Source: a virus. Taken from it: a stretch of 25,314 nucleotides of DNA. Made by a program: the position numbers and the translations under genes. Below the pieces are notes generated by a model, which saw nothing but the letters and a program-made list of their open reading frames with translations, did not search any database and was not told the DNA's origin. Below are positions 8,296 through 19,663 of the stretch, piece by piece (position 1 is the stretch's first letter; each line of letters begins with the position of its first letter). The stretch is from positions 1 through 25,314 of IMG/VR virus record IMGVR_UViG_3300042884_000120. One strand, given 5' to 3'.

Positions 8296-8639
8296 TCTAT
8301 GCAGTCGATTAGGTTAATCACTCCAATATCTTCAGCATCGGCATTGCTGTTCACTACCGAGAAGGTGATGCAAGTGTATTCAACCTCGCAGATGGTGAAC
8401 ACCTCACAGCCTCTTAGGCTGATCGTATAGCCTTGCAGTGGATCGATCTTCGCACCGACAATGGTAAGCATTCCATCTTCATCTGATTCGCTGCCGTAGA
8501 AGGTTTGAATCTTGCCCGTTGCATTGTGCTTGATGTCTACCACATAAGTAGCATCGGCAGGCACTACTCCGAAGGTGATCCCCTCGTTACAGTAGTCTAC
8601 AATTATTCCAGAATCAAAGCAAGGAGAACACACGCTCAT
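8289..8639 (-). CDS. Small beta-rich protein following terminase
   Basis: This 116-aa protein follows the large terminase. I place the start at ATG 8639, which forms an ATGA overlap with the terminase stop; an upstream non-ATG start at 8681 lies wholly within terminase coding sequence. The protein has paired cysteines (MSVCSPC) and an Ig-like all-beta appearance (ATYVVDIKHNATGKIQTF, GYTISLRG) and ends DCIEC. It may be a virion decoration or adaptor protein, but no family was recognised. It occupies the place where a portal gene would be expected. Confidence 0.55.
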   Translation of the reverse strand: MSVCSPCFDSGIIVDYCNEGITFGVVPADATYVVDIKHNATGKIQTFYGSESDEDGMLTIVGAKIDPLQGYTISLRGCEVFTICEVEYTCITFSVVNSNADAEDIGVINLIDCIEC

Positions 8640-9954
8640 AAGTATCGCTTTAGTATTGCGTTTACAAAGTAACGAAAACAATCTAAAAAGTCGGCTCGCT
8701 CTGCGATGTTTTTACGATTGCTTTTTATGATGCCACCATTGGCATCGCATTGCACTTGCTTGGCATCGAATACAAAGCCCTTGCAGCGTTTGGAGTTGGC
8801 ACGAATATCCAACCGCCTTAGTGCTGCGTTACAATCGATCCTGCTGTTGTAGTGGGTAGGGTTTGCAGGAATCATAAACTGAGAATCGGATAACCTCAAC
8901 CTCCGCTTGATCTGAGTATAGGCAGATGAGTTATCTCGCTGCTGCACTGTGCCACCCTTTCCCATTGCATCGCCCGTTATCCTGATCAAGCCCATCGGAA
9001 TGCTCAGTGCTTCCACTGCATCGCAGAAAGCATCAACGCTGCCCTTGTCGATCTTGATCTCATCCACCACTATCGCACCCCTGCCCACTTGCTGGATGAC
9101 CAAAGCACATAACGGGTTAATGTTGAAATCGACTGAAACGAACACTGGCAAGTTAGGATTGAGTTGGATGCTATCATCGATGTGCCTGTCATCGTTCCAC
9201 TCATACAAGAACGGGTTAGCCACATCATCGGCAATGTCCCAATCGCCCTCAACGAATCTTTGGTATTGGATCGGAGGTAGTTCCTTCAGCGATTCAAGGT
9301 ACTCGATAGGGATGTATGGGTTGTCAGTAATCTTCGATGGGATGTAACTCCATCGGTCTGGCAAGGTGTTGCTGCGATACTTCTCATAGATGATTGTCTT
9401 AACCCAATTGTTCGATGGGTTGCAAGTTGCCAAGCAAACGATGGGAGGCTTGCCCTGTGCCTTATTCCAACTGCCGATCCTTTCCTGCACCTTGTAGAAG
9501 GTTGGCTCTTGCAGTTCGTTGACTTCATCCAGCCCAGCACCGTTAACTTCCAAGCCCCTGAATCGATTGAGTTCTTTATCATCGTCATAACTCTCAGCCA
9601 TAAAGATCAACTCGCTGCCGTTAATAAACTCAACGACCTGAGTTTCCCGATTCCAAGACTTGACATATTTTTCAATGCCCTCAGAAAGAATTGAAGTGAA
9701 CGATGGAAATGTTGTCCGCTTTAGATCAGGCAGGCTCTTGCGTATAATTACCCATCGGCTGCGAGGGTATTGCAAAGCCAAGTAAGTGAATGTCATCAGC
9801 AGCCAATAAGTTTTGCCACCACGTTAATCTTGCCCCCTCGCATTGCTGGGAGGGGCTAACCTCGTATAGCACCACCGAAAACAACCACTCGGTAGTTTCC
9901 GTTGATAGCCATATCGTAGGCTTTAGTTTGTGTTGGCGTTAGAGTAAAGTTCAT
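8636..9954 (-). CDS. terL: Terminase large subunit, interrupted in the P-loop by 41 nt
   Basis: ATPase-nuclease that packages phage DNA into the procapsid. The gene is in two pieces: 9954-9859 (32 codons, ending FGGAIRG on GGT, followed at once by TAG) and 9817-8636 (393 aa). Joined, they give 425 aa with an intact Walker A, FGGAIRGGKT, at residues 26-35. Walker B is GAGLDE (Asp129, Glu130) and the coupling motif is TCNPS (163-167). The nuclease acidic residues are Asp262 (VSVDFN), Asp315 (TGDA) and Asp408/411 near the C-terminus. Nothing else looks degraded. Neither piece alone has a complete P-loop: translation from ATG 9796 lacks the Walker lysine. An in-frame TAA at 9824-9826 blocks any upstream extension of the second piece. 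Joining by ribosome bypassing is the leading idea. The start lies 12 bp after the small subunit stop, and the end overlaps the next gene as ATGA. Confidence 0.9.
9818..9858 (-). other. 41-nt interruption of terL with hairpin (candidate translational bypass gap)
   Basis: On the minus strand the gap starts with TAG (9858-9856), directly after the GGT codon 9861-9859. It contains the hairpin CCCCTC (9855-9850) / GAGGGG (9839-9834) with a 10-nt loop, then TAA in the resuming frame (9826-9824), and ends with CGT GGT. GGT 9820-9818 matches the take-off codon, and the next codon GGC resumes terminase as GKTYW. Both edges carry ACG[A/T]GGT, an imperfect 7-nt direct repeat. At 41 nt the gap is far too small for a group I or II intron or an intein. 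It matches the T4 gene 60 pattern (glycine take-off codon, immediate UAG, gap hairpin, identical landing codon) in arrangement, not in sequence. Confidence 0.75.
9834..9855 (-). repeat. GC-rich inverted repeat inside the terL gap
   Basis: There are six perfect pairs (CCCCTC/GAGGGG) around the loop CCAGCAATGC. An alternative register pairs GCCCC (starting with the G of the TAG stop) with GGGGC and bulges one G. A hairpin just 3' of a take-off codon is what stimulates bypassing in T4 gene 60. The AGGGGG on the 3' arm could also base-pair with the 16S rRNA 3' end upstream of the landing codon. Confidence 0.7.
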
Positions 9955-9966
9955 AGTTTCAATTTT

Positions 9967-10404
9967 TTATTCATCGGCTTTGTCTTTTATCTCTGTGCGG
10001 ATGATCACCAAAGGCTCGGTGGTGTTGATTGTGCTTTCACCGTTGTTGCTCCATCTACCTCGCTGCCTATTCGATAGCCAGTGCTTCGCTGCTGCGGTGT
10101 CCGATGGTAGCTGCTTGTGAAGTTTAACGATCTCGCCATCCTTAGTAACTGCCTCCTCCACTATCGTAACTCCTAACGCTCGCTCATACATCGACCTTGC
10201 TACTTTGGCATCTGCATCCTCCTTCCCACGCATTAATGACTCTAAAAAGGTGGGATGGTCGTGCTTCCAATTATTGATTGTTGCCTCGCAAATCTCAAAT
10301 GCTGCTGCTATCTGCACATCACTAAGCCCAAGCAATGCGAGATTGAATGCTCTCTCATCGTGATCAGGTGTGTAGTCTGTTGGTCTGCCTAACTTCTTTT
10401 TCAT
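9967..10404 (-). CDS. terS: Terminase small subunit
   Basis: This 145-aa DNA-recognition subunit recruits the packaging motor. The N-terminus has the usual GRPTDYTPDHDERAFNLALLG followed by a helix-turn-helix (LSDVQIAAAFEICEATINNWKHDHP, about 31-55). Next comes the FLESLMRGKEDADAKVARSMYERALG helix and then LPSDTAAAKHWLSNRQRGRW (about 99-118), a combination typical of small terminases. It directly precedes the large subunit and overlaps the small upstream gene as ATGA, so the three are one unit. Confidence 0.9.
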   Translation of the reverse strand: MKKKLGRPTDYTPDHDERAFNLALLGLSDVQIAAAFEICEATINNWKHDHPTFLESLMRGKEDADAKVARSMYERALGVTIVEEAVTKDGEIVKLHKQLPSDTAAAKHWLSNRQRGRWSNNGESTINTTEPLVIIRTEIKDKADE

Positions 10405-12262: not shown

Positions 12263-12431
12263 TAGACAAACCTTGTTTTAATTCTTGAATCTTTGACTGA
12301 TAAAGTTCGATCTTGTGAGTATATCTAAGATCTTCTGAGATATTCATTTCTCTTGCAATAAGTGTTTGCAACTTAACGATTTCAGAATTGATTTCGATTG
12401 CGATTTCTGGAGTGATTGTGATTGAGATCAT
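12249..12431 (-). CDS. Small coiled-coil hypothetical protein
   Basis: A 60-aa protein from ATG 12431, MISITITPEIA. It is largely a helical hairpin (INSEIVKLQTLIAREM, then IELYQSKIQELKQGL). The frame stays open upstream to 12497, but that stretch is the 73-nt promoter-leader shared with the gene at 19514, so I reject the longer start. The gene is expressed from that promoter. Function unknown. Confidence 0.65.
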   Translation of the reverse strand: MISITITPEIAIEINSEIVKLQTLIAREMNISEDLRYTHKIELYQSKIQELKQGLSNGFI

Positions 12432-12501
12432 AGCTTGAATAGGTTTGAATTGTGAATTATTGTTCAGCAAATATAGAAACCTTTTTTGATTCTGCAATAC
12501 A
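12429..12501 (-). promoter_or_regulatory. Promoter and leader, copy A of a 73-nt module
   Basis: The minus strand has TTG at 12497-12495, 22 bases from there to TATATTTG (12475-12468), then a leader of about 37 nt. The leader ends CAATTCAAACCTATTCAAGC directly before ATG 12431. The same 73-nt arrangement, without gaps, lies before ATG 19514. Conservation includes the -33 region (GCAGAATCAAAA) and the last 20-plus bases of the leader. Confidence 0.8.
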
Positions 12502-12516
12502 TAATCAAATTATTTT

Positions 12517-19304: not shown

Positions 19305-19514
19305 TTAGTTAATTTTGCCGTTTGCTTTTGCCCATTCTAAGCACTTACTGCAAACCATTGATTCATCTTCTAAGTAGTTTTTAATGAACTCTGCTGTCTT
19401 AACTACGTGCGTGCCTTTAGCATTTCTGAAGATGTGTCTGCCACATTGCATTCTTGAAGGGTGTAACTTGTTGTTACCGAGGCTTGCGAATAAATGTGAT
19501 TTGTAATTTGTCAT
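19305..19514 (-). CDS. Small Cys-containing protein
   Basis: A 69-aa basic protein from ATG 19514, MTNYKSHLFASLGNNKL. It has Cys-x2-His (MQCGRH, about 22-26) and CSKCLEWA near the C-terminus, which may form one zinc site. The open frame continues upstream to 19595, but that part is the duplicated promoter-leader and is not counted. Function unknown; probably an early gene, being first after that promoter. Confidence 0.62.
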   Translation of the reverse strand: MTNYKSHLFASLGNNKLHPSRMQCGRHIFRNAKGTHVVKTAEFIKNYLEDESMVCSKCLEWAKANGKIN

Positions 19515-19584
19515 GGCTTGAATAGGTTTGAATTGTTCGTTTTGGTTTGACAAATGTAGAACCTTATTTTGATTCTGCAATACA
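19512..19584 (-). promoter_or_regulatory. Promoter and leader, copy B of a 73-nt module
   Basis: The minus strand has TTG at 19580-19578 and TACATTTG at 19558-19551 with 22-base spacing. The leader ends CAATTCAAACCTATTCAAGC before ATG 19514. It is colinear with copy A at 12429-12501 over 73 bases. The two genes behind the copies are unrelated, so conservation is of the control region. Confidence 0.8.
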
Positions 19585-19663
19585 CAAACAAACAAAATAA
19601 CAAACTACCAGCGTTAATTTGCATAACTCGCTGATAATCAATTCAATTAATTTCAATCTATTT

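Follow-up and report, generated by a model that had tools for sequence, protein, structure and literature searches.

The window – the whole stretch of viral DNA analyzed here, 25,314 nucleotides in length – carries on its minus strand a gene for the terminase large subunit (terL) that is split by a short gap. The reading frame opened by the ATG at 9954-9952 reads MNFTLTPTQTKAYDMAINGNYRVVVFGGAIRG and runs into the stop TAG at 9858-9856; the remaining part of the gene (GKTYWLL...) resumes with GGT at 9820-9818 and GGC at 9817-9815 (GGT GGC AAA ACT) and ends at 8636. The original prediction had described this split, with a GGT directly followed by TAG and a resuming GGT GGC AAA ACT, and its coordinates were all confirmed on the minus strand, as were the stops in both frames: TAG 9858-9856 in the leaving frame and TAA 9826-9824 in the resuming frame. 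It also holds that a skip of 41 nt rebuilds GGAIRGGKT: without the gap, the joined protein has 425 aa and matches its uninterrupted relatives in length and Walker A motif, and these relatives, as was expected of homologous terminases, read GGAIRGGKT without a gap. The features of the locus are as follows:

9862..9954, minus strand: terL ORF1, 31 codons, MNFTLTPTQTKAYDMAINGNYRVVVFGGAIR, the last codon being the proposed take-off CGA; its codons are under purifying selection in interrupted alleles
9866..9912, minus strand: 5' stem-loop of 8+9 bp, immediately 5' of the take-off codon and corresponding to the 5'SL in T4 gene 60
9862..9864, minus strand: take-off codon CGA (Arg31), invariant across interrupted alleles
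9821..9861, minus strand: putatively bypassed gap of 41 nt, composed of a 6-nt linker, hairpin, tail and landing codon
9856..9858, minus strand: UAG stop in the leaving frame, gap codon 2
9834..9855, minus strand: gap hairpin CCCCUCCCA-GCAA-UGCGAGGGG, up to 9 bp with a GNRA-type tetraloop, based on covariation
9824..9826, minus strand: UAA stop, immediately 5' of the landing codon and in its frame
9821..9823, minus strand: landing codon CGU (in the family CGA, CGU or CGC)
8636..9820, minus strand: terL ORF2 (GGKTYWLLMTF...), the remaining terminase large subunit (Terminase_3, PF04466), stop codon included
9967..10404, minus strand: gene upstream of terL, by its position probably the terminase small subunit (terS)

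The gap hairpin of the window contains one C.C mismatch. Part of the gene at 9967..10404 shares ~70% DNA identity with the terS of Riemerella phages; a Pfam match was not found for this gene. No tRNA genes were detected in the window or in ten loci. Elsewhere, positions 12428-12509 and 19511-19592 form an 82-nt direct repeat (82% identical), within which two small ORFs begin; their N-termini are alike (...FKPIQAM), and these are perhaps duplicated leaders.

Recurrence and common layout of the insert

A terminase search of IMG/VR returned 80 relatives, most of them intact, with roughly twelve that share the interruption site of the window; pattern scans of IMG/VR raised the interrupted set to 47 contigs besides the window. 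Throughout this set, the gap lies at the identical position of terL and is 39, 40 or 41 nt long. The scans yielded 25 distinct inserts, a same-site recurrence that is far beyond chance. Nine more contigs go with ATACGAGGTTAGCCCC, and the motif is absent in them. Scan matches with a supposed 52-nt gap were rejected as uninterrupted genes with a chance ATACGA upstream.

All 25 distinct inserts share one observed anatomy, i.e. CGA - N6 - CCCC N5 GNAA N5 GGGG - tail - CGA/CGU/CGC - GGN GGN AAR. Conservation at the two ends is just as directly observed: the take-off ATA CGA is invariant in interrupted alleles, even in scans that did not require it, while several Ile and Arg codons are in use at this position in uninterrupted alleles. 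Only CGA, CGU and CGC serve as landing codon, also when the scan left this codon free, and identity with the take-off CGA is found in only part of the interrupted alleles. The missing CGG is weak evidence alone, because CGG is absent at this position in uninterrupted alleles, too. Since the CGA...CGN design is common to every insert, a hop would lead from Arg-CGA to Arg-CGN and not from GGU to GGU. The GGT-to-GGT hop envisaged in the original prediction must thus be abandoned: 22 of the 25 distinct inserts do not start with a Gly codon, and with only three that do, CGA (9864-9862) to CGT (9823-9821) is the supported pair. In the window itself, both readings yield the same 41-nt skip.

The two coding parts of interrupted terL are out of frame or blocked by a stop, and jointly they encode one conserved protein. 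A leaving-frame stop lies inside the gap in every distinct insert (at codon 1 in seven, codon 2 in six and codon 8 in 12), and in 12 of them, window included, TAA directly precedes the landing codon. Moreover, the three insert lengths place ORF2 in all three frames. Because no fixed frame relation exists and a leaving-frame stop is always present, neither programmed frameshifting nor stop readthrough could serve all inserts, and both were rejected; skipping from CGA to CGN, as judged from the common layout, can serve all of them.

A generic hairpin scan of IMG/VR for the same element in other genes gave only unrelated chance matches outside terL, and the three matches from a scan of genome_contigs are all attributable to chance. 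In the classes of L069, L070 and L077, no stop blocks the landing frame and an ATG arises through the insert (CGATGG), from which a 408-aa terminase with an altered N-terminus would be possible. The phages are uncultured and their hosts are probably Bacteroidota. The search for cultured relatives gave only distant terminases and, for terS, a weak resemblance to the DNA of Riemerella phages; hence, the host is not fixed.

Selection and RNA structure

Selection was observed on both sides of the gap. Downstream of it, pN/pS is 0.059 in interrupted terL and 0.087 in uninterrupted terL; within interrupted alleles, the first eight codons past the landing codon have a pN of 0.02 and a pS of 0.53, and the 31 codons before take-off a pN of 0.033 and a pS of 0.168. 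This terL is the only terminase in 12 out of 12 interrupted phage records (the window and others of ~34-38 kb). As far as substitution patterns can tell, the interrupted terL is a working gene.

The GC-rich hairpin that the original prediction placed in the gap is present at 9855-9834, and covariation was observed in it; its folding energy, however, lends no support, since the gap of the window folded alone is not better than shuffled sequences (z 0.19). Support for this hairpin is covariation, not folding energy. It begins 6 nt past the take-off codon and consists of 9 bp capped by a GNAA tetraloop; 98.7% of its cells are paired, both sides have changed at four pairs, and the covariation score is 0.501 versus 0.209 after shuffling (0 of 500). 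Among the 225 cells, 180 are Watson-Crick, 42 are G.U and none is A.C, which identifies the constrained strand as the mRNA (sense) strand.

A second helix, the 5' stem-loop of 17 bp (8+9), was found with RNAalifold and ends one base before the take-off codon. Its cells are paired to 97.1% in 34 distinct interrupted alleles, but only to 53.3% in 72 uninterrupted ones; random synonymous codons reach 78.8 +/- 1.3%, with a maximum of 82.2%. In the window, the stem-loop folds at -22.3 kcal/mol (z -4.98). A pair of loci with near-identical N-termini illustrates the difference, with -21.4 kcal/mol for the interrupted L118 versus -6.8 kcal/mol for the uninterrupted L117. The pairing of ATGGC with GCYAT in this stem-loop can also account for the DMA encoded by interrupted alleles in place of the DQA, DLA or NQA of others. 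Apart from one helix of 3 bp, the extended fold contained no further conserved helix.

One locus departs from this pattern. In L044/L131 (one contig; L044:4818-4982), an insert of 39 nt follows a native N-terminus, and both the standard 5' stem-loop and the endonuclease gene described below are missing. A different stem is predicted there (-23.4 kcal/mol), and gapless kin reach -20.2 kcal/mol. L044 is an exception to the 5' stem-loop rule and counts against the interpretation that we prefer; at the same time, it represents a natural test of whether the 5' stem-loop is needed.

Homing endonuclease and patchy distribution

Linkage to an endonuclease gene was observed in 28 out of 52 interrupted loci, where a NUMOD4-HNH gene abuts terL, versus none out of 85 uninterrupted ones. 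Only loci with enough upstream sequence were counted, and some of them lie on a common contig, which reduces the number of independent cases; as the loci are related and the cassettes co-inherited, these counts do not stand for independent events. The endonuclease gene is located between the end of terS and terL, is intact (~175 aa) and evolves under purifying selection (pN/pS ~0.2). Its product possesses NUMOD4 and HNH_3 domains, and the closest PDB chain is I-HmuI 1U3E. When IMG/VR was scanned with the endonuclease alone, all 20 close homologs with a readable far side were situated 71 nt before the ATACGA of an interrupted terL. From this arrangement we infer a cassette consisting of the endonuclease gene, codons 1-31 of terL (which contain the 5' stem-loop) and the gap.

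The observed distribution is patchy: in the tree, terL genes with and without the interruption are intermingled, with 16 changes, of which at least eight are forced by well-supported branches. Near-identical pairs with and without the insert occur (L019/L020, L039/L044), and the homology breakpoints observed in such pairs often fall in the interval from the terS end up to the landing codon. A conversion tract of this extent would explain the common N-termini of interrupted alleles. The gap is kept without the endonuclease in the window, L001, L020 and others. Remnants of the endonuclease were looked for in 22 loci without it: none was found in the window, and only N-terminal matches of 36 aa in three loci. 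Going by this layout, the window derives from a full cassette of which the gap was retained while the endonuclease was lost.

Other HNH genes were seen near terminases as well. In L252:2716-5203 and L253, a terminase-like ORF without the N-terminal P-loop part directly follows the gene for a distant NUMOD/HNH protein (42% identity), and an int-alpA RNA (RF02996) lies 5' of it. In L257 and L258, from unrelated phages, other HNH genes are directly beside the genes for the small and large terminase subunits, so that homing may repeatedly target terminase loci.

Interpretation and comparison with known systems

We consider it very probable that the gap is a scar, bypassed by ribosomes, which a mobile homing cassette has left in terL. 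Ribosome bypassing, as originally predicted, is thus supported by sequence evidence, yet it is not proved, because neither RNA nor protein data exist. According to this model, ribosomes would translate 31 codons up to CGA, where the peptidyl-tRNA-Arg would detach from the mRNA; a slide of 39-41 nt without translation would be aided by the 5' stem-loop, which folds in the wake of the ribosome, and by the GNRA-capped hairpin in front of it. The tRNA would re-pair on CGA, CGU or CGC, and decoding would resume at GGN GGN AAR to give GGAIRGGKT; the hop and its efficiency remain inferences. CGA is read by tRNA-Arg-ICG via a weak I.A pair, and CGA, CGU and CGC are the codons of this tRNA. A review mentions I.A apposition as well as a frameshift site with CGA (PMC5009743). 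That a single tRNA with the anticodon ICG reads both take-off and landing codons is our inference. The cassette, in turn, would spread by homing into uninterrupted terL alleles, and the P-loop DNA, once split by the gap, presumably no longer contains an intact endonuclease site; both cleavage by the endonuclease and the resulting immunity are inferred.

The main rival is removal at the RNA level: the insert could be an unprecedentedly small mobile intron, excised from the mRNA at CGA|...CGN|GG by an unknown enzyme or by self-cleavage, so that no bypass takes place. Homing endonucleases often accompany introns, the ends of the junction are direct repeats (CGA...CGN) and the RNA structure is conserved, all of which would suit such an origin. 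A length of 39-41 nt is nevertheless far below that of any self-splicing intron we know of, no Rfam match was obtained in the window or in five interrupted loci, and to our knowledge no splicing-endonuclease route exists in bacteria. Excision alone would also leave the invariant CGA, the landing codons of the same tRNA and the T4-like 5' stem-loop unexplained, and we regard it as improbable. Group I and group II introns in particular were rejected owing to the insert length and the lack of an Rfam match to a catalytic core. It is more doubtful still that ORF2 arises from re-initiation or from a start codon within the insert, which would result in a shortened or split terminase. The inserts of the L069/L070 class do create an in-frame ATG (MVAPCRNVRGKDYRGGKT...), and most 39-nt variants contain an in-frame GTG; but in the 12 of 25 distinct inserts with TAA right before the landing codon, that of the window included, no start lies ahead of GGKT, and the P-loop lysine could therefore not be made. 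Purifying selection on both ORF1 and the first codons of ORF2 is also at odds with re-initiation.

Two further explanations seem to us the least credible, and equally so. Stops in both frames give these genes a broken look, as would be expected if the assembly were wrong, or if the phages were defective and the gene inactivated. The gap, however, recurs at the same place in 47 other contigs from many metagenomes and is thus no assembly error, a pN/pS of 0.06 and a covarying structure do not fit a dead gene, and phage records of ~35 kb contain a single terL copy; recurrence and purifying selection already contradict this explanation. Alternatively, slippage at short repeats could delete the insert and maintain a sub-population with an intact gene, and near-identical phages with and without it, e.g. 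L019/L020, may be read as the two states of such a switch. Yet the constraint acts on the sense-strand RNA (42 G.U and no A.C cells), and the allele differences span the upstream cassette, beyond the insert.

If the bypass interpretation is correct, the terL family represents a second, independent case beside T4 gene 60, the only well-established phage bypass since 1988. Its 25 distinct natural variants would let evolution reveal how codon choice, gap length and stem-loops govern bypassing, and a homing endonuclease plus a bypassed scar would be a repeated route for selfish DNA into the active site of an essential gene. For these phages, it also means that terL, a marker gene, is overlooked or cut short by gene callers. 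As to novelty, which the original prediction claimed, we found no report of an interrupted-terL bypass family in the open literature (subscription papers and bioRxiv were outside the scope), but a terminase bypass is not without precedent: for the terminase of Streptomyces phage Hau3, bypassing has been suggested on other grounds (PMC5009743). Both terminase genes are thought to require bypassing; the gap in Hau3 is much shorter, is tied to UUA decoding and is not described as a mobile insert (PMC5009743). The prediction of a bypass in the window, moreover, did not yet include the upstream stem-loop, the homing endonuclease or the family-wide distribution.

The byp elements in the mitochondria of Magnusiomyces are likewise short ribosome-bypassed inserts described as mobile, but they occupy 81 positions in one mitochondrial genome and are apparently context-independent (PMC5009743), whereas the terL element is phage-borne, has one fixed site and brings its own upstream stem-loop. 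A covariance model run over the collected loci detected the element exactly once in each interrupted locus and at no other place in these loci, and identity with byp elements was rejected on this basis. I-HmuI of phage SPO1 (PDB 1U3E) belongs to the same HNH homing endonuclease family as the cassette endonuclease; I-HmuI resides inside a group I intron, while the cassette endonuclease is free-standing and no intron was detected.

The closest parallel is T4. Programmed translational bypassing in gene 60 is said to go back to Huang (1988), and Bonocora et al. (2011, PNAS; cited in PMC8300805) reportedly treat this bypass together with the homing endonuclease mobA. In gene 60, directional sliding is promoted by two structures that appear in the rear of the moving ribosome, a 5'SL and a take-off stem-loop (PMC11194080, PMC5009743), and the bypass is apparently unique even among T4 relatives (PMC3014915). 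As with mobA and gene 60, a homing endonuclease gene adjoins the gene with the putatively bypassed insert, though here it is of the NUMOD4-HNH_3 type. The 5' stem-loop upstream of take-off, the gap hairpin with its stabilizing tetraloop and the leaving-frame stop are common to both systems. In T4, this stop directly follows take-off, which is true of only seven of the 25 distinct terL inserts, and ORF1 comprises 46 codons in T4 but 31 in terL, where no KKYK-like nascent-peptide motif was seen. The terL hairpin is distinguished by its start 6 nt after the take-off codon. The affected site is the P-loop of terL instead of a topoisomerase subunit, the proposed hop leads from Arg CGA to CGN rather than from Gly GGA to GGA, and in contrast to gene 60 the terL gaps come in dozens of natural variants whose lengths cover all three frames.
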